Shown piece after piece: positions 15,317 to 41,662 of a stretch of 42,064 bases of DNA. The position numbers were made by a program, and so were the translations under genes. The DNA lies in IMG/VR virus record IMGVR_UViG_3300005288_000095, positions 1-42,064 of that record. One strand, given 5' to 3'. Each line of letters opens with the position of its first letter. Positions within the stretch are counted from its first letter, which is position 1. This stretch comes from a virus. Under the pieces are notes generated by a model. That model saw only the letters and a list, made by a program, of their open reading frames with translations, was not told where the DNA came from and searched no databases.

Positions 15317-15353
15317 GGTGGTGCTCCTTCGTGGTGTCGTGGTGATGGATAGA

Positions 15354-15383
15354 ACTATACGCTAGATCTCGTAGAATACCTAA
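15354..15383 (-). promoter_or_regulatory. Leftward phage promoter P1
   Basis: On the minus strand: TTAGGT, 18 bases, TATAGT. The spacer ends ATCTAGCG, identical to the rightward copies. The TTAG of the -35 contains the stop codon of the upstream gene (15382-15380). It is the only leftward member found of the seven-copy family. Confidence 0.8.
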
Positions 15384-25526: not shown

Positions 25527-25552
25527 GTTCTATACGAGATCTAGGGTATAGT
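25523..25552 (+). promoter_or_regulatory. Phage promoter P2
   Basis: TTAGGT, 18-base spacer ending ATCTAGGG, TATAGT. The upstream TAG stop codon is part of the -35. It is followed by a leader with CACCACGACACAACGG and drives the HicA-like gene. Confidence 0.8.
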
Positions 25553-25616
25553 TCTTACTGTCAGCCAAACAAGGGCTAGACTTACAACGAACACCACGAC
25601 ACAACGGAGCGAGCAT

Positions 25617-30486: not shown

Positions 30487-32337
30487 ATGACGCTCTACAT
30501 CGATATTGAAACCAGGTCCCGCGTGAACCTGAAGAAATCCAACGCATACCGCTACTGTGAGGATCCCGACTGGAAGATCCTGATGGCAATCTGGGCAATC
30601 GACGACGGCCCAGTCAGCGTAGCCTTCACCACGGAGGAGATCCTTGCGATCCCCGAACTGTGGGATCCCACCACTGAGAAGATTGCGCACAACGCAGCCT
30701 TCGAGCGGATCAACTTCAGCTACTTCATGGGCCACCCTGCTGCCATCGGGATGCTCGACCCGGCAGAGTGGACCTGTACCCAGGCACTCGCCGGGGAGCA
30801 CGGATACCCGCAGAAGCTGGAGAAGCTCGCTCATGCACTCGCCGGGGAGCAGAAGGATGAGAAGGGTACAGCCCTGATCACCTTCTGGACGAAGCCGAAC
30901 CGCAAGGGCGAGTTCAACAAGCCGGAAGACCACCCGGAGAAGTGGCAGCAGTTCATTGACTACGGCATCCAGGATGTCGTGACTCTGCGGGACGTACACA
31001 AGCGGCTGCCTGGTTGGCCCAATGAAGCTGAGCGCCAGGCATACATCGCAGACCAGAAGATCAACGACAACGGCATCTTGGTCGATGTGGAGATGGCTCG
31101 CATTGCCATCGCAACCGCAGACGCCAATGCTGCAAAACAGGTCGCCGAGATCCAGCAGATTGCTGGCATCGAGAACCCCAACTCTGGTCCCCAGATGCAG
31201 GGATGGCTGCGGGAGCAGGGTCTGGTGTTTCCGAACCTGAAGGCAGAGACCGTGGAGGAGCTGCTGGCCGGGGACCTCCCGGATGACGCTCGCCGTGTGC
31301 TGGAGCTTCGGCAGGAGCTGGCTCTGGTCGCGATGAAGAAGTACACTGCAGCTCTCGATCGCGTAAACGAGGACGACCGACTGCGGGGAGCGTTCCACTT
31401 CTTCGGGGCTCACACAGGCCGATGGGCGGGTCGCGGGGTCCAGCTCCAGAACCTCCCGTCGGCCACCATCAAGCCCCAGGGGGAGGAGCACGTCGATACT
31501 GCGATTGCTGCAGCCGTACTGGACCTGCACATGGGGAGCGAGGTCGATGCTCACACCCTGAAGGCTCTGGTGCGGGCGATGTTCCTTGGCCCCTTCACCG
31601 TGGTGGACTACTCAGCCATCGAGGCTCGAGTGCTGGCATGGCTCGCTGGGGAGGAGTGGGCACTCCAGGCCTTCCGGGACGGCCGAGACATCTACGTCGA
31701 GACCGCCACTCGTATGGGCAAGGGAATGACCCGCAAGGATGGCAAGGTTGCTACCCTGGCACTCGGCTACAACGGTGGCATCATGTCGCTTCGGCACATG
31801 GGCGCAGAGGGCGACGACAAGAGGCTGCAGCGTCTCGTGTACCAGTGGCGCGATGCCAACGAGTACATCGTCGGATTCTGGGCGGAGATGGATGCGGCAT
31901 TCCGCAAGGGCGACCGCTCCGTCGGCGACCGCATCTACGTCGAGCGAGACGAGAAGGACCGCCGCATCGTCCTCCCCTCGGGCCGAGCGATCACATACCA
32001 CAACGTCGCAGGTAAGTGGGTGGACACGAAGTACGGCCGCAAGCAGGTCATCGTCTACACTGACCCGGCTTGGTATCCAGCCAAGACCCAGACCTACGGT
32101 GGAAAGCTCACTGAGAACGTTACCCAGGCAGTCGCTCGAGACATCCTCTCGGAGGCTCTCGTACGGCTCGTGGACCGTGGCCATACCGTCGTAGGCCACG
32201 TACACGATGAGATCCTCGTAGAGGGCCTCAGCAGCCTGGACGAGATTACCAAGATCATGGTGGAGCAGCCAACCTGGGCTGAGGGTCTCCCGCTCTCAGC
32301 CGAGGGCTTCACCGCACCCCGCTACAGGAAGGACTAA
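30487..32337 (+). CDS. Family A DNA polymerase with 3'-5' exonuclease
   Basis: Six hundred sixteen residues. Proofreading domain: YIDIETRSRVNL (D5, E7), KIAHNAAFERINFSYF, and GIQDVVTLRDVH (Exo III). Polymerase: VVDYSAIEARVLAWLAGEEW (motif A, D374), KDGKVATLALGYNGGIM (motif B), HVHDEILVEG (motif C, D574). There is no 5'-3' exonuclease domain, as in T7-like enzymes. ATG 30487. Probably replicates phage DNA with 5-hmdU in place of dT, given the island that follows. Confidence 0.93.
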   Translation: MTLYIDIETRSRVNLKKSNAYRYCEDPDWKILMAIWAIDDGPVSVAFTTEEILAIPELWDPTTEKIAHNAAFERINFSYFMGHPAAIGMLDPAEWTCTQALAGEHGYPQKLEKLAHALAGEQKDEKGTALITFWTKPNRKGEFNKPEDHPEKWQQFIDYGIQDVVTLRDVHKRLPGWPNEAERQAYIADQKINDNGILVDVEMARIAIATADANAAKQVAEIQQIAGIENPNSGPQMQGWLREQGLVFPNLKAETVEELLAGDLPDDARRVLELRQELALVAMKKYTAALDRVNEDDRLRGAFHFFGAHTGRWAGRGVQLQNLPSATIKPQGEEHVDTAIAAAVLDLHMGSEVDAHTLKALVRAMFLGPFTVVDYSAIEARVLAWLAGEEWALQAFRDGRDIYVETATRMGKGMTRKDGKVATLALGYNGGIMSLRHMGAEGDDKRLQRLVYQWRDANEYIVGFWAEMDAAFRKGDRSVGDRIYVERDEKDRRIVLPSGRAITYHNVAGKWVDTKYGRKQVIVYTDPAWYPAKTQTYGGKLTENVTQAVARDILSEALVRLVDRGHTVVGHVHDEILVEGLSSLDEITKIMVEQPTWAEGLPLSAEGFTAPRYRKD

Positions 32338-32342
32338 CCAGC

Positions 32343-33089
32343 ATGAAGGCAACAATCCTGAACGAGTTCGAGATGGGACTCGTAGAGCCGCAGGACACCG
32401 ACGAGACCTGGTTCCTCGACTGGGTCCTCCGGTCCCCCAAGCACGCCGGAGACCACCTGGCGTGCAGCTACAAGACGTTCGGAGCGATCGCCAGCTTCTA
32501 CGAGGAGGAGATCCTTCTCGGCAACATCACGTCGGTGAAGGAGTACTTCGGTGGCATGGGTGCTCACGCTCTGTTCGCGCAGGAGCTCTTCCAGCCGACC
32601 GACCATGCGGTCACCGATTACTCAGCGGCTGCAGTAGAGCACCTGCAGCGGGTCCTCCCCGGTAACGTGCGGGTCTGGCAAGCAGACGCATATGATTCTG
32701 AGACACCGTGGATGGCCGACATTGCCATCCTGGACTTCGGAGACCTGACGGTGTTCAAGGCACAGCAGGACCAGCCGAGGGGCAAGCTCCTCGACACGGT
32801 GTTCGGTATGCACCCGAACGCAGTGACGATCACCGACATTGCAGCCCGGTACCTGCACCTGCAGAAACGGTCCTACGAGCCTCTCCTCGGGGAAGGGTGC
32901 TGCGAGTCATACGAGGAGTATCTCGAGCGCTTCTCTCGGCTGCTCGAGGACCGCTATGGGTACGTCATGCTCCAGGCCAACTACACGCGCTGGTCCACAG
33001 TGATGGCATTTGTACCGCAGGACACCGGAGCGGCTCACGGCGAGTTCCACAAGTACGTCTCCCCTCTCCCTGCGTTGGTGATCTCGTGA
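32343..33089 (+). CDS. Rossmann/methyltransferase-like protein, first gene of modification island
   Basis: Two hundred forty-eight residues. Residues 65-136 look like an AdoMet-type Rossmann fold: SVKEYFGGMGAHALFAQELF (E-x-F-x-G-x-G), HAVTDYSAAAVEHL (acidic end of beta 2), VWQADAYDSETPW and DIAILDFGDLTVFKA. No N-P-P-Y of N6/N4 DNA methylases or PC of C5 enzymes. It starts 5 bases after the polymerase stop and overlaps the next gene (GTGA), so it belongs to the modification operon. May methylate a base adduct or be a catalytically different fold relative. Family not recognised. Confidence 0.65.
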   Translation: MKATILNEFEMGLVEPQDTDETWFLDWVLRSPKHAGDHLACSYKTFGAIASFYEEEILLGNITSVKEYFGGMGAHALFAQELFQPTDHAVTDYSAAAVEHLQRVLPGNVRVWQADAYDSETPWMADIAILDFGDLTVFKAQQDQPRGKLLDTVFGMHPNAVTITDIAARYLHLQKRSYEPLLGEGCCESYEEYLERFSRLLEDRYGYVMLQANYTRWSTVMAFVPQDTGAAHGEFHKYVSPLPALVIS

Positions 33090-34000
33090 ATCTGTTCGAT
33101 CGGCAGAACTTCCAGCTCTACCTCGACTTCGTCGTGGGGCGGCATCGCATCTGGGAGCAGCGGCAGGAGGGTGTACCGGGACCCTGGTCGGAGGACCCCA
33201 TCCTCGCCAGCAGGAAGTTCACCAATGTCTTCCGAGTGCTGGACCCAGGCAGCCAGTTCATCTTCGATCTGGATGAAGCTGGTATCCCGGACCGGGATGT
33301 GCTCATGCGTCTCTTTCTCTATCGGCATACCGGCCGAGTGGAGGCCTGGCAGAATATCGCTCTGTACCTGGGAGGGTATCCTCAGGTGGGAGAGCTGCAG
33401 GACACTCTGAACATCTGGAAGAAGTACCGTGCGGAGGGCAAGGCCGTCTTCACCGGAGCGTACCTCGTCTACCCGCAGTCGTCTACGGCAGGGACCGACA
33501 AGCTCGAGTCGATCATCCGGCTGACCCAGCGGCTGTTCGACCCTTCCTCCCCGGAGGACATCGTGCCCGACTTCATGGCGGCAACGACGCAGAAGGAGCG
33601 GTTCGAAGTCCTCCGCAGGACCAAGGGTGTGGCAGACTTCATGTCGATGCAGATCCTGACCGACTGGGGATACACACGCTTCGTCGACGAGGACCTGGAG
33701 AACGAGTTTGTCGTACCAGGACCCGGTGCTCGCCGGGGAGTCTCCAAGCTCGTCGTCACGCCACAGCAGAAGGATTTCCTCTGGTTCGCCCAGGCCGAAC
33801 TGCTGCAGACCGAAGGGTGCCCGATGCTGAATTTGGGATCTTCGGAGAGACCACCTAGTATTATGGATGTCCAGAATACAATGTGTGAATTCAGTAAGTA
33901 CATTAGATTTGTAGAACAGGGTAAGACCGAGCTCAAGCCCTACGTCCCCGCTCACCCGGGGGCACAGCCAGCACCACGCACACCCGCCCACTGGGCATAA
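33086..34000 (+). CDS. 5-hmdU DNA kinase helical-domain / aGPT-Pplase-like protein
   Basis: Three hundred four residues. GRHRIWEQRQEGVPGPWSED, then DPILASRKFTNVFRVLD: the R..I.E.R..G.P.PWt.DPIL...FTNVyR..D signature of the alpha-glutamyl/putrescinyl thymine pyrophosphorylase group, named in Pfam as 5-hmdU DNA kinase helical domain. Later segments include KGVADFMSMQILTDWGY and PGPGARRGVSKL. GTG start overlaps the previous gene. Acts on hydroxymethylated thymine in DNA or its activated form. Two related-type proteins are in this island; which step each does is inferred. Confidence 0.82.
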   Translation: MNLFDRQNFQLYLDFVVGRHRIWEQRQEGVPGPWSEDPILASRKFTNVFRVLDPGSQFIFDLDEAGIPDRDVLMRLFLYRHTGRVEAWQNIALYLGGYPQVGELQDTLNIWKKYRAEGKAVFTGAYLVYPQSSTAGTDKLESIIRLTQRLFDPSSPEDIVPDFMAATTQKERFEVLRRTKGVADFMSMQILTDWGYTRFVDEDLENEFVVPGPGARRGVSKLVVTPQQKDFLWFAQAELLQTEGCPMLNLGSSERPPSIMDVQNTMCEFSKYIRFVEQGKTELKPYVPAHPGAQPAPRTPAHWA

Positions 34001-34021
34001 CTCGATAGGAACCAGACCACG

Positions 34022-35575
34022 ATGAACGAATACTACGATGCCAACCACGCACTCCCCTACCTCTGCAAGAGCGTACTGGAGAACGGCGACCCGGTTGAGA
34101 GCCGCAACGGTCTCACCAAAGAAGTCATCATGACACAGTTCAGCCTCGCCAATCCGGACAACCCATACATCACTGTCCCCGGTCGGAAGGTATCCCTGCC
34201 GGCACAGATCGCCGAGGTCATGTGGATCCTCGCCGGTCGAAACGACATCGAGTGGTTGTCCCACTACCTCCCCCGAGCAGCTCAGTTCTCCGACGATGGC
34301 AAGCACTGGCGGGGAGGGTACGGTCCTCGGCTGCGCAGCTTCGGCGGTACCTTTGAGGGGATTGACCAGCTCAAGCACGTCGTTGAGCTTCTGAAGGCAG
34401 ACCCGGAGACTCGTCGGGCGGTCTTCCAGATCTACGATCCCTCGATCGACACGGAACCAGGCAAGGACATCCCCTGCAACAACTGGGTCCACTTCCTCCC
34501 CCGCGAAGGAGTCCTGCACGCTCACGTCGCTATTCGCAGCAACGACCTGTTCTGGGGCTGGAGCGGCATCAATGCCTTCGAGTGGACCATCCTCACGGAG
34601 GTCGTTGCAGCGCTGTCCGGGTTGGAGCGTGGCTCGCTCACCTTCAGTATCTCGAGCCTCCACTTGTATGACCACAAGTGGGACCGCGCTGCAGCTCTCG
34701 CCAAGCAGGTAGGTCGCCCCGAACAGGCTCACACGGAAAGCCCCAAGTTCCAGTACAGTGGCACGGTGGGGCAGTTTGATGCTCTCGTGGGAGAATGGTT
34801 CAAGGTTGAGGGTCAGATCCGCAAGGGTGGTATCAGCTCGGCTCTCCTGCACCAGATCGACACCTTCCCGGAGCCGATGTTCCGTAGCTGGCTGCGGGTC
34901 CTTCTCGCTTGGCACCACGACGACATCCAGGGACTCGCTGGTATGCACTCTGGAACAGCTCTCTACGCTGCTCTCGAGGCTTCCCCGAAGCGCCAGACCG
35001 AAGGTACCAAGCTTCGGGATCGCACCCTGGAGAACGCTCAGAAGGACTTCACGGTCTTCGCCGACAAGCTCCACCGGGAGAAGCACGCAGCCTATGGCAA
35101 CAGCTGGAAGAAGCGTGGCGAGATGCTGGGTATCATGGCAAACATGGCCCGCAAGATCGACCGCCTCGGAGTCGCCGGTGGCGGCGACACGGCTGCGGAC
35201 ACCGCCATCGACCTGCTGATGTACGCCATCAAGTATCAGCTGTGGCTCGACGAGCAGAAGCACCTGGACTGGAAGGGAATCACCGACGGGGACATTCACG
35301 CCGACGAAGTCACCAAAGCACTGGAGAGTCTCGCCAAGAAGACGCTGTCTGTCGCCTCTCAGGCCGATCTCATTGCTAAGGTACACGAAGTCTTCGACCG
35401 CCTCGAGCAGGAAGTGACAGACAAGACCTACGATCGTAATCTGACAGTAGCACAGCTCATTGCCTGGGTCTACCCTCTGGCGGTTCGCCTGTGGAAGCAG
35501 GAGCAGCTCGAGAAGGCCAAGGCCACCGTGGCGGAGCTCAATGCTGTCCGTCCGTTCAACGGTTACGACGTATGA
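34022..35575 (+). CDS. dUMP hydroxymethylase (thymidylate synthase-like) fused to Nmad1-like domain
   Basis: Five hundred seventeen residues. Residues 1-~310 are thymidylate synthase fold: RRAVF (131-135), catalytic Cys152 in KDIPCNNWVHF, IRSNDLFWGWSGINAFEWT with R172, S173, D175 and N184, and SSLHLYDHKWD with H214/Y216. Asn at the base-contact position favours uracil over cytosine, so dUMP to 5-hmdUMP is expected. Residues ~333-412 (EKHAAYGNSWKKRGEMLG ... DTAIDLLMYAIKYQLWL) resemble Nmad1/DUF1599, linked to nucleotide modification. ATG 34022, ATGA overlap with the next gene. Substrate is inferred. Confidence 0.85.
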   Translation: MNEYYDANHALPYLCKSVLENGDPVESRNGLTKEVIMTQFSLANPDNPYITVPGRKVSLPAQIAEVMWILAGRNDIEWLSHYLPRAAQFSDDGKHWRGGYGPRLRSFGGTFEGIDQLKHVVELLKADPETRRAVFQIYDPSIDTEPGKDIPCNNWVHFLPREGVLHAHVAIRSNDLFWGWSGINAFEWTILTEVVAALSGLERGSLTFSISSLHLYDHKWDRAAALAKQVGRPEQAHTESPKFQYSGTVGQFDALVGEWFKVEGQIRKGGISSALLHQIDTFPEPMFRSWLRVLLAWHHDDIQGLAGMHSGTALYAALEASPKRQTEGTKLRDRTLENAQKDFTVFADKLHREKHAAYGNSWKKRGEMLGIMANMARKIDRLGVAGGGDTAADTAIDLLMYAIKYQLWLDEQKHLDWKGITDGDIHADEVTKALESLAKKTLSVASQADLIAKVHEVFDRLEQEVTDKTYDRNLTVAQLIAWVYPLAVRLWKQEQLEKAKATVAELNAVRPFNGYDV

Positions 35576-36618
35576 TCGACTGGAGGCTCCCGGAGAACCG
35601 CAGGGAGGCATTCCAGCGGTTCTACTCCTTCCACCTGAAGTACCAGTCGCACCCTGGCCTCGTCTACAGCTTCCTCCCCGGCATTGCCGAGGCGTATGAG
35701 CTGGACGAGGACCAGCGTGCATGGCTGGCATGGCTCAACGGTAACACGCAGAACCCTGTGATGTCGATGCTCCTGCTCGACGCGGCTCCCACCCATAAGG
35801 ACTGGGAGTGTGCAGTCGAGTTCTGGAACACCAACTTCAAGCTGATGGACTTCGACACTGATCGGCGGCACCAGAAGTCGAAGTTCGGAGAGGCCACCGC
35901 CAAGTGGGCAGAGATGGTCGGGCCTCACCCGGCTCTCGGCTGGCAGAAGGCTGGCATCATGGGCTGGGAAGACACATGGAAGTATGCCAACTCCCAGCCC
36001 TACATGGGTCGCCTGTCCGCCTGGTCCATGACGGAGTACGCTCGCATCCTCCTCGGAGACGACGTGCCGGACGCTGGTAGCTGGATGTTCAACGACGTGT
36101 CGGGGAGCCGCTCTCACCGGAACGGAACCGCTGTCGTCGCTGGGTACGATGCCACCTTCTGGGAGGCTGAAGTTCCCAAGGTGCTCGGCATCGTGGAGGA
36201 GCTGGAGGCCTTCGCAGATGACCTGCTGCGAGAGGCCATTGAGCGGAACCCCAGCAACCCTGACGTCGGCCGTCTCACGATGGAGTCGGCACTGTGCACG
36301 TACAAGAGCTGGCACAAGCCGAACCGGAGGTACCCGAACGTCTACTCGGACATGGCGTACCTCCGGATCAAGAAGGCAGAGGCAAGGTTCGGCAAGCGCT
36401 TCGACCTGCTGTGGCAGATCCGGTTCGACACCCTCCCCGAGCATCTCCGGCTCGAGCACATGCCGAACGATCCAGGCCTCACTGCGGTGAAGCAGAACCA
36501 CTACCTCGAGACTGGCGAGGTAATCATGATGAATCGGGACTTCCCGGACATGGAGAACAGCTTCAATTACAACGTGGACTTCGGAGTCTACGGCACACGA
36601 AAGGACCCCAAGTGGTAG
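35572..36618 (+). CDS. Amino acid:DNA transferase-like (aGPT-Pplase clade) protein
   Basis: Three hundred forty-eight residues. RFYSFHLKYQSHPGLVYSFL, then RAWLAWLNGNTQNPVMSMLL: the 'WLA.LNGNTQNPV' motif of the family that couples an amino acid to hydroxymethyl-pyrophosphoryl thymine in DNA of phages such as ViI and M6. Further RLSAWSMTEYARILLGDDVP and LTMESALCTYKSWHKPNRRY. ATG 35572 overlaps the hydroxymethylase stop. Expected to displace the activated phosphate with glycine, serine, glutamate or another amine. The donor cannot be read from sequence. Confidence 0.78.
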   Translation: MIDWRLPENRREAFQRFYSFHLKYQSHPGLVYSFLPGIAEAYELDEDQRAWLAWLNGNTQNPVMSMLLLDAAPTHKDWECAVEFWNTNFKLMDFDTDRRHQKSKFGEATAKWAEMVGPHPALGWQKAGIMGWEDTWKYANSQPYMGRLSAWSMTEYARILLGDDVPDAGSWMFNDVSGSRSHRNGTAVVAGYDATFWEAEVPKVLGIVEELEAFADDLLREAIERNPSNPDVGRLTMESALCTYKSWHKPNRRYPNVYSDMAYLRIKKAEARFGKRFDLLWQIRFDTLPEHLRLEHMPNDPGLTAVKQNHYLETGEVIMMNRDFPDMENSFNYNVDFGVYGTRKDPKW

Positions 36619-36629
36619 GCCACAACGAG

Positions 36630-37493
36630 ATGACCCCGGTAGAGCTGCGCAATGGCAGGTACTACAAGCGGGAGGACCTGTACCGCAACGACAAGTACGG
36701 GGTGAACGGAGCCAAGTTCCGTGCATGCCGTCACCTGTTCCAGAAGGCAGTCGACGAAGGTGCGACTGCGGTCGTGTCGGCCTCCTCCGTCCTCTCGCCT
36801 CAGGCAGCTATGGCCGGGGTCCTGGCCGAGGAGTTCGGCATCGACTGCACTCTGGTGCTCGGCGCAACCAAGGAGACGACTGCACCCAAGCACGTCTCAG
36901 TGGCGATCGCTCTCGAGGCTGGGGCCAGCATGAACCTGGACAGCAAGGTAGCTTACAACCCTGTCATCCAGCAGAAGGGGAATCTCCTCTCTAAGGAGCT
37001 CGGAGCTTGGCAGCTCCCCTACGGGATCACCACACCGGCCGACGCTCCTGCAGACGAGGTTGAGGCCTTCCTCGAGGTTGGTGGAGCGCAGGTGTGTAAC
37101 CTCCCCGAGGAGATCGAGACTCTCGTGATCCCGTTCGGCTCCGGCAACACAGCGACCGGTGTGCTCTACGGGCTGTCTCAGTTCACCACGCCGCACGCTC
37201 TCAAGCGTGTCGTGCTCGTCGGGGTTGGACCGGACCGGCTGCAGTGGATGCGCTCACGCCTCGACTACGTCGGCATTGCCATGGACAAGCTCCCCTTCGA
37301 GATCGAGCACCTGCCTCTCCACGGATGGTATGCAGACTACGCCGACAAGATGCCAGAGACGGCCGACGGTATCGTCATGCACCCGACGTACGAAGGCAAG
37401 GTCGTTCGCTTCCTGAACGAGAGCAGTTTCCCCTGGTGGGATGCCCGCGACGGCAAGACCTGCATGTGGATCGTGGGAGGGCCGATCGGATGA
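36630..37493 (+). CDS. Fold-type II PLP-dependent enzyme
   Basis: Two hundred eighty-seven residues. Resembles ACC deaminase / cysteine synthase / threonine synthase-like enzymes: YYKREDLYRNDKYGVNGAKF with K29 as likely Schiff-base lysine, ATAVVSASSVLSPQAAMAGV, and IPFGSGNTATGVLYG (170-177), the phosphate-binding loop. Shorter than most fold-type II enzymes. ATG 36630; the next gene starts at its stop (ATGA). In this island it probably acts on the amino-acid adduct (decarboxylation, elimination or replacement) or makes the amine donor. Confidence 0.82.
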   Translation: MTPVELRNGRYYKREDLYRNDKYGVNGAKFRACRHLFQKAVDEGATAVVSASSVLSPQAAMAGVLAEEFGIDCTLVLGATKETTAPKHVSVAIALEAGASMNLDSKVAYNPVIQQKGNLLSKELGAWQLPYGITTPADAPADEVEAFLEVGGAQVCNLPEEIETLVIPFGSGNTATGVLYGLSQFTTPHALKRVVLVGVGPDRLQWMRSRLDYVGIAMDKLPFEIEHLPLHGWYADYADKMPETADGIVMHPTYEGKVVRFLNESSFPWWDARDGKTCMWIVGGPIG

Positions 37494-38083
37494 CGCAGTC
37501 GGTCTACGTGATCGGTGCCGCTGGAGTAGGCAAGTCCACCTTCATGGGTGAGCTGCTCCAGCGGCTGCCGGTCGCCATGAGCCCCGAGCTGGAGGACCTT
37601 CACGCCAAGCCGAATGCCGCAGGGAACCAGGTCACCCTCCGAGGCCACTACCTGTATCAGGCAGCAGACCTGTGGGGCGTGTACCTCGGAGTGTGGAGGG
37701 AGCAGTTCCCCGGATCGGACGGGCTGGACCGGGCAAGCTCCCCCACTGGGGAGGAGTGGCTGCATGGAGAGGGGCAGTACCTCCCGGACGCCATCATCGC
37801 CGAAGGGGCGACCTTGGCAACCCGCAGGTTCATGAAGGCTCTCAACGAGACGACAGACCTGCTGGTGCTCGCCCTCCGGTGCGACCCGGTGGTGCACGAT
37901 CTCCGACTCGCCGAGAGGGGAGCAGGGCAGGTCTCGAGCTTTGTCCTCTCCACCGTGACGAAGACGGAGAACCTGGTGAACGACCTCCGCAAGGAGGGTG
38001 CTCGAGTCGAGTGGATCGACGCCGACACACCTGCCCATTGGAGAGCTGGATTACAGCTCGCGGAATCGCATCTGAGCCAGTAG
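37490..38083 (+). CDS. P-loop kinase, probable 5-hydroxymethyl-dU DNA kinase
   Basis: One hundred ninety-seven residues. SVYVIGAAGVGKSTFMGELL with Walker A GAAGVGKST at 9-17, AIIAEGATLATRRFMKALN, LLVLALRCDPVVHDLRL, and a basic/acidic end. Related P-loop kinases phosphorylate the hydroxyl of 5-hmdU in DNA, preparing it for amino acid transfer; this size and location fit. ATG 37490 overlaps the PLP stop. A clear terminator follows. A nucleoside monophosphate kinase for 5-hmdUMP is an alternative. Confidence 0.78.
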   Translation: MTQSVYVIGAAGVGKSTFMGELLQRLPVAMSPELEDLHAKPNAAGNQVTLRGHYLYQAADLWGVYLGVWREQFPGSDGLDRASSPTGEEWLHGEGQYLPDAIIAEGATLATRRFMKALNETTDLLVLALRCDPVVHDLRLAERGAGQVSSFVLSTVTKTENLVNDLRKEGARVEWIDADTPAHWRAGLQLAESHLSQ

Positions 38084-38086
38084 CAT

Positions 38087-38122
38087 AGGCCTCACCCAGC
38101 AAAGGGGTGAGGCCTTGCTTTT
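38087..38122 (+). terminator. Rho-independent terminator after the modification island
   Basis: AGGCCTCACCC / GGGTGAGGCCT, 11-bp stem with a 7-base loop, followed by TGCTTTT. It ends the operon 32343-38083 and separates it from promoter P4. Confidence 0.85.
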
Positions 38123-38131
38123 GGGCAGGAC

Positions 38132-38159
38132 TTTACTTCTACTCGATCTAGCGTATAGT
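38132..38159 (+). promoter_or_regulatory. Phage promoter P4
   Basis: TTTACT, a 16-base spacer ending ATCTAGCG, TATAGT. The -35 and spacer differ from the main form (two bases shorter), so activity may be different. It is followed by a CCACC/GGTGG mini-hairpin and leads to the 38220 gene. Confidence 0.75.
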
Positions 38160-38219
38160 TGATTCCCCCACCAGCCGGTGGCACTACGCTACATCGACAA
38201 CTCGAACAAAGGAACCGCA

Positions 38220-38837
38220 ATGACTAAGTACACCGAGAACCAGACCGCAATCCTCGCCGGAGTCGACCTCTCCGACGGCAGCTGGTTCGAAGACATCGTT
38301 ACCACCGTTGCCGAGCAGGGTCTGAACAAGGACAAGAAGCAGGCACGCGTCACCCTCAACCAGCTCATCAAGAAGGGCACCCTGGGCGTCGACACGACCA
38401 AGGAAGAGGGCGAGTCCTGGGTCTACCTGCAGGAGACGGAGCCGTGGTTCCGCAGCGAGCAGGGCCTCCCTGAAGAAGCACCGGCCGAGGAAGCCTCCGA
38501 GGAGGACGAAGAGGATCTCATCGGCGAAGTGCACGAGGACGAACCGGAAGCAGCGGAGGAGGCCCCTTCGGCAGCTGCTGACGTGACCAAGACCGTGGAG
38601 GACAACTACACGGTCCGGGAGTGGACGGACGAGCACGAGGTCGAGTGGACCGAGACCGTGTTCAACGACGGCTCCCGTACCATCAAGCGTCGCAAGAAGG
38701 TCTCCGGCTCGTGGCGCACCGACTACTGGGGCGCAGAGTTCGAGGGTGACGCAGAGCGCTACACCACCGCCAAGTTTGCCAAGATGGCTCGAGCCTACGG
38801 CAACTTCAAGCACAACCCCATCGAGGATGTAGTCTAG
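38220..38837 (+). CDS. Winged-helix-like protein, paralogue A
   Basis: Two hundred five residues. Residues ~5-75 (GVDLSDGSWFEDIVTTVAEQ ... QARVTLNQLIKKGTLGVD) look like a winged helix; an acidic linker (EEASEEDEEDLIGEVHEDE) follows; the last ~70 residues (VREWTDEHEVEWTETVFNDG, RRKKVSGSWRTDYWGAEF) are shared with the 38973 protein. ATG 38220, AAAGGA upstream. Each paralogue has its own promoter and terminator, so they may be regulators. No name is known. Confidence 0.78.
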   Translation: MTKYTENQTAILAGVDLSDGSWFEDIVTTVAEQGLNKDKKQARVTLNQLIKKGTLGVDTTKEEGESWVYLQETEPWFRSEQGLPEEAPAEEASEEDEEDLIGEVHEDEPEAAEEAPSAAADVTKTVEDNYTVREWTDEHEVEWTETVFNDGSRTIKRRKKVSGSWRTDYWGAEFEGDAERYTTAKFAKMARAYGNFKHNPIEDVV

Positions 38838-38890: not shown

Positions 38891-38920
38891 TTTACTTCTC
38901 TTCTGCATCCAGGGTATAGT
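38891..38920 (+). promoter_or_regulatory. Phage promoter P5
   Basis: TTTACT, 18-base spacer ending ATCCAGGG, TATAGT. It is followed by CACCACGACACAACGAAC and drives paralogue B. Confidence 0.8.
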
Positions 38921-38972
38921 TCTATTCATCAGCTCCACACCACGACACAACGAACACCACGGAGGCACCAAA

Positions 38973-39578
38973 ATGAACGCAAAGCTCACCGCCAAAGAGA
39001 CCGCACTCATGACGGCAATCGCCGCTAACCACTTCAGCTTCTTCGACCAGGGTCTGGTTGACGGGTCTGGCATCTGGACCGAATGCATGACCGACGAAAT
39101 CGCAGGTCACAAGGTCTACAAGGTTTCCGACTCGCAGCGCGGAGTTGCCACCGTCATCGCCTCCCTCGGTCGCAAGGGTCTCCTGCTCACCGATACCAAC
39201 GAAGACGGAGCCTGGACCGAGCTCACGGCAGCCGGGGAAGCCTGGATCACCGAGCACAACGGCCAGTCGGACCGCGAGGTACAGGAAGCAGCAGTCGCCG
39301 AGCGCATGGCCCCCAAGGTTGTGAACCCCGAAGCCAAGCACCCGGGAGAGACCACCGAGGCCAACGAGACCTTCGCAGTCAGCGAATGGGCAGACGAAGA
39401 CGAGACCGAGTGGGTCTCGACCGCATTCGCCGATGGCTCCTCCACCCTCCGCCGTCGCCGCCAGGTATCCGGCGCATGGCGCACCGACTTCTGGGGCACC
39501 ACGGCCGACGGCAAGAAGGTCTCCATCCTCTCCAGGGACGCCAAGGCAGCCCGGGAAGCCGGAACCTTCACCATCTAG
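38973..39578 (+). CDS. Winged-helix-like protein, paralogue B
   Basis: Two hundred one residues. N-terminal helical/winged part: ETALMTAIAANHFSFFDQGL, RGVATVIASLGRKGLLLTD. C-terminal VSEWADEDETEWVSTAFADG and RRRRQVSGAWRTDFWGTTAD align by eye with paralogue A, though the N-terminal parts differ. ATG 38973 follows GGAGG in the leader. Conserved W-x-D-E-x-E...D-G-S...R-R...V-S-G-x-W-R-T-D-x-W-G domain of unknown function, possibly DNA or protein binding. Confidence 0.78.
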   Translation: MNAKLTAKETALMTAIAANHFSFFDQGLVDGSGIWTECMTDEIAGHKVYKVSDSQRGVATVIASLGRKGLLLTDTNEDGAWTELTAAGEAWITEHNGQSDREVQEAAVAERMAPKVVNPEAKHPGETTEANETFAVSEWADEDETEWVSTAFADGSSTLRRRRQVSGAWRTDFWGTTADGKKVSILSRDAKAAREAGTFTI

Positions 39579-39620: not shown

Positions 39621-39650
39621 TTAGGTTCTCTTCTGCATCTAGGGTATAGT
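39621..39650 (+). promoter_or_regulatory. Phage promoter P6
   Basis: TTAGGT, 18-base spacer ending ATCTAGGG, TATAGT. It is followed by ACCTCGACACAACGGAG and drives the 39694 gene. Confidence 0.82.
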
Positions 39651-39693
39651 TGAGTTTACCAAGCAAGACCACCTCGACACAACGGAGAACGAA

Positions 39694-40565: not shown

Positions 40566-40595
40566 TTAGGTACTCTTCTACATCTAGCGTATAGT
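40566..40595 (+). promoter_or_regulatory. Phage promoter P7
   Basis: TTAGGT, 18-base spacer ending ATCTAGCG, TATAGT, immediately after the TGA of the upstream gene. It drives the DUF932 gene. Confidence 0.82.
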
Positions 40596-40598
40596 TAC

Positions 40599-40657: not shown

Positions 40658-41662
40658 ATGCACAACCTCGATATCACCAACGGTGTAGCAAGCTTCGTCT
40701 CGGCTCGTGAAGACGCATGGCACGCCATGGGCGAAGTCCTCCCCGATTCGTTCACCGCCGAAGAGGCTCTGAAGTACGGCAAGCTCGGGGGATGGAACCT
40801 CCGCAAGACCGCACTCTTCACGGAGGTCGACGGCAAGAAGATCCTCACCCCGGACATGTACGCAGTGGTCCGCAACAACCCTGTAGTCAAGGGGCAGCGA
40901 GATGTCCTCGGCGTCGTCGGCAACAAGTACACGATCATCCAGAACGAGGACCTGGCGACCCTGCTGAACGCTCTCGTCGATGAGAGCGGGGCACACTTCG
41001 AGACCGCCGGAGCGATCGACGGAGGCCGCAAGGTCTTCATCACGATGAAGCTCCCTGGCAACATCAAGATCGGTGGAGTCGACCGCGTCGACAACTACAT
41101 CGCCATCATGACCTCTCACGACGGCACGACCTCTACCCAGATCATGGTGACGCCGATCCGCATCGTCTGCCAGAACACCCTCAACATGGCATTCAACGGA
41201 GCCAAGCACGCTGGAGTCTTCCGCGTCCGCCACACCGTCGGTGCCCACAAGATCATGCTGCAGCAAGCACGTGAGGCTCTGGACTTCACCTTCGACTTCA
41301 TCGAGGACTTCCAGGCCGACGCCGAGAAGCTGATCAACACGACGATGACGCAGCTCCAGTTCGAGGAGATCATCCACGAGGCATTCGGCGCACCGGCCGA
41401 CGCTCCCCTCGGGACGCTGACTCGTACGGAGAACAAGCTCGACACGATGATGAATCTGTACGCCGACGCCAACACTCAGGAGGGCATCCGGGGCACTGCA
41501 TGGGCAGGGCTCAACGCTCTCACCGAGTGGTACGATCACTTCTCCCACGTCCGTGGTGCGGGAGTAAACACCGGCACGGAGGAAGTCCTGCGCTCCCGCC
41601 GAGCCTTGCTCGACCCGTCCTTCAAGAACCAGGCACTCAAAATGATGATGGAGTTGGTCTAA
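40658..41662 (+). CDS. DUF932 phage/plasmid-like protein
   Basis: Three hundred thirty-four residues. Features of the DUF932/TIGR03299 group: SAREDAWHAMGEVLPDSFTA at the start, GVVGNKYTIIQNEDLATLL, DNYIAIMTSHDGTTSTQIMV, and TPIRIVCQNTLNMAF. The family is common in plasmids and actinophages; its biochemical role is unknown, though it is often near replication or recombination genes. ATG 40658 follows AAGGA. It abuts the membrane protein gene. Confidence 0.88.
   Translation: MHNLDITNGVASFVSAREDAWHAMGEVLPDSFTAEEALKYGKLGGWNLRKTALFTEVDGKKILTPDMYAVVRNNPVVKGQRDVLGVVGNKYTIIQNEDLATLLNALVDESGAHFETAGAIDGGRKVFITMKLPGNIKIGGVDRVDNYIAIMTSHDGTTSTQIMVTPIRIVCQNTLNMAFNGAKHAGVFRVRHTVGAHKIMLQQAREALDFTFDFIEDFQADAEKLINTTMTQLQFEEIIHEAFGAPADAPLGTLTRTENKLDTMMNLYADANTQEGIRGTAWAGLNALTEWYDHFSHVRGAGVNTGTEEVLRSRRALLDPSFKNQALKMMMELV

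Follow-up and report, generated by a model that had tools for sequence, protein, structure and literature searches.

A compact, probable thymidine hypermodification island in a phage genome includes a new protein family as candidate tailoring enzyme

Thymidine hypermodification has been described in Salmonella phage ViI and in Pseudomonas phage M6, and these two systems provide the comparison for the locus analyzed here. The ViI open reading frames (ORFs) orf67, orf160, orf226, orf243 and orf247 are assigned to HMUDK_HMUD1, HMUDK_hel, the pyridoxal phosphate (PLP) enzymes, HMUD2 and ADDT (amino acid:DNA transferase), respectively, with the calls for orf226, orf243 and orf247 carried over from their phage sal1 counterparts. 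In 2018, Lee et al. reportedly used five ViI products, gp67, gp160, gp226, gp243 and gp247, to make 5-(2-aminoethoxy)methyl-deoxyuridine (5-NeOmdU; dU below stands for deoxyuridine) in vitro. Phage M6, whose modified nucleoside is 5-(2-aminoethyl)-dU, has HMUDK_hel (gp55), ADDT (gp51), PLP enzyme (gp52), kinase (gp54) and hydroxymethylase (gp58) proteins. In the DNA of another phage, SP8, replacement by 5-hydroxymethyl-dU is complete (PMC7653180). We examined an IMG/VR virus record, IMGVR_UViG_3300005288_000095 (42,064 bases, of uncertain completeness; hereafter the window), in which six plus-strand genes at 32343-38083, designated g1 to g6, very probably constitute a thymidine hypermodification island. 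The core of five enzymes is of a kind already known, a comparable set being present in Glutamicibacter phage Montesquieu; g1 is the new part.

Relatives of the ViI deoxyuridine monophosphate (dUMP) hydroxymethylase, HMUDK_hel (orf160), ADDT (orf247) and fold-type II PLP enzyme (orf226) are encoded in the window. The ViI pathway genes are dispersed, and two of them encode kinases (PF18748 and PF18747), whereas the window has one compact operon with one PF18751 kinase, and also g1, which gave nothing at E<=1 by blastp against six ViI pathway proteins. M6 shares the HMUDK_hel, ADDT, PLP enzyme and hydroxymethylase families of the core and likewise has a kinase, but differs in its radical S-adenosylmethionine (SAM) gene, gp53, and in its distant PLP enzyme. 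The five-gene core would take the ViI-type pathway, in compact form, to probable actinobacterial phages: a sequence-only reading of the window had called it an actinophage, which fits its closest relatives, Montesquieu (OV696619) and Brevibacterium phage LuckyBarnes, and the host is probably an actinobacterium.

Family searches gave significant, mutually consistent matches, far above chance, for five of the six products, and placed them, as the sequence-only reading had proposed, among the ViI and M6 thymidine hypermodification genes. The helical-domain protein of 5-hydroxymethyl-dU (5-hmdU) kinases that it had recognized in g2 (33086-34000) belongs to the HMUDK_hel/aGPT-PPlase1 family (PF18723, E=3.5e-48), with BLASTP matches to ViI orf160 (6e-12) and M6 gp55 (2e-15). 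In g3 (34022-35575), the N-terminal ~265 amino acids (aa) resemble thymidylate synthase (PF00303, E=1.3e-28), and the closest solved relative is the cytidine monophosphate (CMP) 5-hydroxymethylase MilA (E=6e-28). The catalytic residue C152 and N184 are kept in 10/10 aligned sequences. Position 184, the dUMP-recognition position, is Asn as in thymidylate synthase, whereas the CMP enzyme MilA has Asp. Because C152 is kept, residue 184 is Asn and not Asp, and the thymidylate synthase stretch IWDEW has been replaced, the sequence favors a dUMP hydroxymethylase. The earlier assignment of g3 as a fusion of such an enzyme with Nmad1 survives in its first half only. The conserved C-terminal extension, shared with Montesquieu and LuckyBarnes, gave nothing at E<=10 with DUF1599 (PF07659), and none of 10 relatives matched a nucleotide-modification domain there.

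The transferase g4 (35572-36618; ADDT/aGPT-PPlase2) matched ViI orf247 at 1e-16 with 26% identity and is 66% identical to Montesquieu MONT_42; 13 of the 17 members of its alignment match the ADDT model PF18724 (best 1.9e-14). The fold-type II PLP enzyme g5 (36612-37493) matched ViI orf226 at 1e-36 and PF00291 at 6.9e-6, under the curated cut-off, while its family profile matched 1-aminocyclopropane-1-carboxylate (ACC) deaminase at 1.7e-13. Lys35 of g5 is invariant in 17/17 sequences, ViI and M6 types included, and we infer that the enzyme decarboxylates the attached amino acid. The P-loop kinase g6 (37490-38083) matched PF18751 (Ploopntkinase3, E=9e-13) and is the putative 5-hmdU DNA kinase. 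In cassettes with a Tet_JBP oxygenase, Frederick-type and others, a PF18751 kinase adjoins the transferase; since 5-hydroxymethyluracil (5-hmU) in these cassettes should arise in DNA by oxidation, the family would appear to phosphorylate at the DNA level. The 5-hmdU DNA kinases M6 gp54 and ViI Vi01_061c carry the annotation 'terminase small subunit', as does PHROG 800, which g6 matches; the label is probably a misannotation.

Sequence searches of the PDB found no relative of g2 or g4, and g2 had no significant match among PDB structures, the sole suggestive ones, to the PaMx11 glycinyltransferase 8z2m and to 8-oxoguanine glycosylases, being weak. A common glycosylase-like ancestry of g2 and g4 was considered but found no support, as their profiles fail to align with each other.

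Which tail the island builds is suggested by the direction of these matches. Each of g2, g4 and g5 has a BLAST counterpart in ViI. The ViI-type PLP enzyme is matched by g5 at 4e-38 and M6 gp52 at 0.09; g4 and g5 have no significant BLAST match to M6 gp51 and gp52; and no radical-SAM gene was found in the window (PF04055, no match at E<=1). For these reasons a ViI-like, serine-derived 5-NeOmdU backbone is our leading prediction, and a reasonably probable one. The second ViI kinase, HMUD2 (PF18747), was not found, ViI orf243 having no match in this record of uncertain completeness. The amino-acid specificity of g4 is not readable from its sequence, and at 26% identity to orf247 it might attach glycine or another amino acid, giving an M6/PaMx11-like or new backbone in place of aminoethoxymethyl. 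The most relevant of the weak matches of the g2 model, the PaMx11 glycinyltransferase (prob 0.54, TM 0.41), points the same way. We consider this alternative unlikely, though worth carrying forward, given the ViI affinities of g4 and g5 and the radical-SAM result.

In the pathway we propose, g3 would convert dUMP to 5-hydroxymethyl-dUMP, host or phage kinases would phosphorylate this product, and polymerase would then incorporate 5-hmdU. The 5-hydroxymethyl group in DNA would be activated through phosphorylation by g6 with g2; g4 would put an amino acid in place of the phosphate(s), serine being the likeliest by the example of ViI; and decarboxylation of the attached amino acid by g5 would yield a ViI-like 5-NeOmdU. 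A SAM-dependent, optional step by g1 could then add one more group, the likeliest being a methyl placed on the tail, to give a derivative not yet described. Taken whole, this ViI-like pathway with tail tailoring by g1 is the best explanation we can offer and, we judge, a likely one. The sequence-only reading had expected an amino-acid or amine derivative, possibly new; g4 and g5 point to a ViI-like tail derived from serine, and the presence of g1 is specific ground for expecting an extra, new modification. By comparison with well-studied phages, such a tail would serve to hide the phage's own DNA from host defenses.

The product of g1 (32343-33089) is a new family with a confidently predicted class I SAM-methyltransferase fold. 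It found no relative at E<=0.01 among 50,697 phage records, and two divergent members of its family found none at E<=1. Pfam returned nothing above chance (Methyltransf_25, E=0.11; AviRa, 0.25), PHROGs and NCBIfam gave no match, profile searches of the PDB produced nothing useful, and 84,980 genomes of bacteria and archaea yielded none in a pattern scan, a method that can miss relatives. Scans of IMG/VR brought the family to ten distinct sequences; those other than g1 share 37-65% identity with it. The AlphaFold2 model (predicted local distance difference test, pLDDT, 90; predicted template modeling score, pTM, 0.90) bears out the Rossmann/methyltransferase-like character assigned to g1 earlier: all of the top 50 Foldseek matches in the PDB are SAM-dependent enzymes (E about 5e-8, prob 1.00, TM 0.36-0.55), with Trm1 reaching the highest query TM (0.55), and two uncultured-phage AdoMet_MTase proteins in BFVD match at TM 0.73-0.79. 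Invariant in all ten sequences are E67, F69, G70, G71, G73, D115 and D131-T136, and position 92 is always D or E. On our own motif assignment, from sequence and predicted strands (E67 with G70, G71 and G73 as motif I acid and glycines, D/E92 as II acid, D115 as III acid, D131 as IV Asp), these are the residues that a functional SAM site would be expected to keep.

Every member found of the g1 family is on a contig bearing a hypermodification pathway, with g4, g5 and g6, in four gene arrangements that span both routes by which 5-hmdU is made. These are polymerase-g1-g2-g3-g4-g5-g6 (the window and L004; L numbers denote the records compared), g4-g1-g5-g2-g3-g6 (L035, L037-L039), ParB-like-g4-g1-g5-g6-Tet_JBP (L016, L018, L019, L020), and g2-g3-g4-g5-g6 preceded at a distance of about 7 kb by g1 (L051, L052), with g1 of L052 overlapping the helicase-like gene in front of it. 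No g1 was found off hypermodification-bearing contigs in the phage records, the IMG/VR scans or the pattern scan. The cassettes of L018 and L024 have flanks of 84-85% DNA identity around a clean 724-bp insertion, which is g1, present in L018 and absent from L024, between g4 and g5. On the g5 tree, the presence of g1 needs five changes, at least three of them forced by well-supported branches. From this clean insertion, the changes on the tree and a patchy occurrence (no g1 in 13 of the 20 hypermodification records tested, although these 13 may be fragments), g1 appears to be an exchangeable, optional add-on.

This pattern bears on what g1 does. On balance we lean, by a small measure, towards g1 tailoring the tail through SAM. 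An ordinary ViI-type pathway, with plain 5-NeOmdU as the final base and with g1 in another replication role, for instance as a conventional methyltransferase for DNA or a host target, would account for the 13 records without g1, for the comparable Montesquieu cassette that lacks it, and for L051 and L052, where g1 lies inside the replication module. We think this unlikely, yet deserving of attention: it sits poorly with the restriction of g1 to hypermodification-bearing contigs, with its place between the transferase gene and the PLP gene in cassettes of two different types, and with its clean insertion in the closely matched L018/L024 pair.

If g1 is a tailoring enzyme, the simplest guess, by analogy, is a methyltransferase that would add a methyl to the amine tail. 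MnmC-type enzymes use SAM to methylate an amine that the tRNA wobble uridine bears on its C5 side chain (PMC3648344). They act on tRNA, and serve here as an analogy of reaction. The g1 reaction could also be other than methyl transfer, as with a SAM cyclase or another alkyl transferase. Our fullest proposal is tentative, and we put it somewhat below an even expectation: g1 would be the first SAM-dependent methyltransferase of thymidine hypermodification, methylating the amino-acid-derived tail to give an undescribed DNA base, a DNA counterpart of the C5 side-chain methylation found on wobble uridine in tRNA, and would form a module exchangeable between the dUMP-hydroxymethylase and Tet_JBP routes. 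If so, the tail-sculpting enzymes known so far would gain a further class; g1 makes a new DNA base a concrete question for mass spectrometry, in which 5-NeOmdU is recorded at m/z 302.1 (PMC6449724).

Several observations weigh against the proposed pathway or the place of g1 in it. The window's own g4 sequence has no match to PF18724, and g6 has none to the ViI/M6 kinase family PF18748; a single P-loop kinase was found in the window, where ViI and Montesquieu each have two. That g1 accompanies the PLP enzyme is, taken alone, slight evidence, as nearly all g4-bearing contigs carry a PLP enzyme. Finally, g1 is acidic (isoelectric point 4.8, net charge -17) and may therefore act on a free metabolite and not on DNA. 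In that event g1 might make a methylated or cyclized amino acid for g4 to attach, and methyltransferases of small molecules are indeed among its fold neighbors, as is the SAM cyclase AzeJ. Against this, g4 and M6 gp51, which act on DNA by family, are acidic too, and net charge across the g1 family spans -5 to -17; we rate action on a free small molecule as distinctly improbable. Least probable by far is a metabolic role for the PLP and kinase genes, as auxiliary genes with no part in DNA modification, which is how MONT_40 (ABC transporter) and MONT_41 (ACC deaminase) of Montesquieu were described (PMC9331655): g5 is indeed ACC deaminase-like, but it matches ViI orf226, and in more than 25 contigs it adjoins the gene for the DNA transferase.

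The Montesquieu genes themselves fall in the PF18751 kinase family (MONT_40) and the ViI-type PLP family (MONT_41), which corrects the published metabolic reading. Montesquieu shares with the window the polymerase, HMUDK_hel, hydroxymethylase, ADDT, PLP enzyme and PF18751 kinases, but it has two kinases, its genes lie in two clusters, and no g1 relative was found in it. Its Nanopore assembly gave no single contig (PMC9331655), which might reflect modified DNA.

Other actinophages take a different route to the modified base. In the Mycobacterium phage Frederick group and related IMG/VR contigs, ADDT likewise adjoins a PF18751 kinase, but a Tet_JBP oxygenase makes 5-hmU in DNA, and neither hydroxymethylase nor HMUDK_hel was found. 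A five-gene system proposed to hypermodify thymidine in another actinophage, Rhodococcus phage Tonitrus, includes aGPT-PPlase2 and a 5-hmU DNA kinase; it is also of the Tet/J-binding-protein type, and neither a PLP enzyme nor a methyltransferase is described for it (PMC11955845). Among 26 records, HMUDK_hel and a thymidylate-synthase-like gene occurred in the same 11 and Tet_JBP in the other 15, a clean split (26/26) for which we claim no significance, the records being related and picked by similarity. In M6-like systems the synthase always accompanies aGPT-PPlase1 (PMC9599517); we found no description in the literature of the exclusion of Tet_JBP by HMUDK_hel. In LuckyBarnes (L047, 5994-10009), HMUDK_hel and the hydroxymethylase occur with two glycosyltransferase genes, of which the one tested is of the TAGT (TET-associated) type; its base is likely a sugar-decorated version of the same base. 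From the split and from LuckyBarnes, HMUDK_hel looks to track the route by which 5-hmdU enters DNA, during replication, and not the kinase or transferase as such, which makes its role testable.

Tet_JBP cassettes in which g1 was not detected (L011, L012, L014, L017; also L022 and L026) encode a conserved protein of ~170-230 aa between the PLP and kinase genes (L011, 5510-6211; L012, 10300-10836; L014, 10312-10854; L017, 7264-7779). It has His and Cys motifs and matches no Pfam family (CHAP, E=0.53 in one), and it is possibly a second uncharacterized tailoring enzyme.

The layout of the island agrees with the tight operon, coupled starts and clear terminator noted in the sequence-only reading. 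By ORF calls and direct reading of the junctions, its six genes adjoin or overlap: g1/g2 by 4 nt (GTGA), g3/g4 and g5/g6 by 4 nt each (ATGA) and g4/g5 by 7 nt, with a 21-nt gap between g2 and g3 and GTG starts in g2 and g5. A Rho-independent terminator (38087-38115, plus strand; 11-bp stem, T-rich tail) ends the operon, the region 38080-38125 having a folding energy of -27.6 kcal/mol (z = -4.7 relative to shuffles). Upstream lie genes for a DUF2800 exonuclease, an Enc34-type single-strand binding protein and, 5 nt before g1, a family A DNA polymerase (30487-32337, plus strand; PF00476, E=1e-14); because these precede it, the island is the end of the replication module.

A promoter-like motif, CTTCTNNATCTAGNGTATAGTT, occurs in six copies in the window at <=3 mismatches, with none expected in shuffles: 15353-15374 on the minus strand, and 25532-25553, 38139-38160, 38900-38921, 39630-39651 and 40575-40596 on the plus strand. 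At least two copies lie directly behind terminators, and the set probably represents the phage's own promoters; the copy at 25532-25553, upstream of the replication and modification genes, may serve these. Copies of this type also precede each of two tandem paralogous genes (38220-38837 and 38973-39578) for small proteins with 30% identity (E=1e-20) and no assigned function. Further downstream, 40658-41662 encodes a phrog_1221 protein (E=2e-98), likewise without an assigned function, whose relatives sit 3' of the hypermodification kinase in Montesquieu (MONT_38), L004, L007, L008 and L009.

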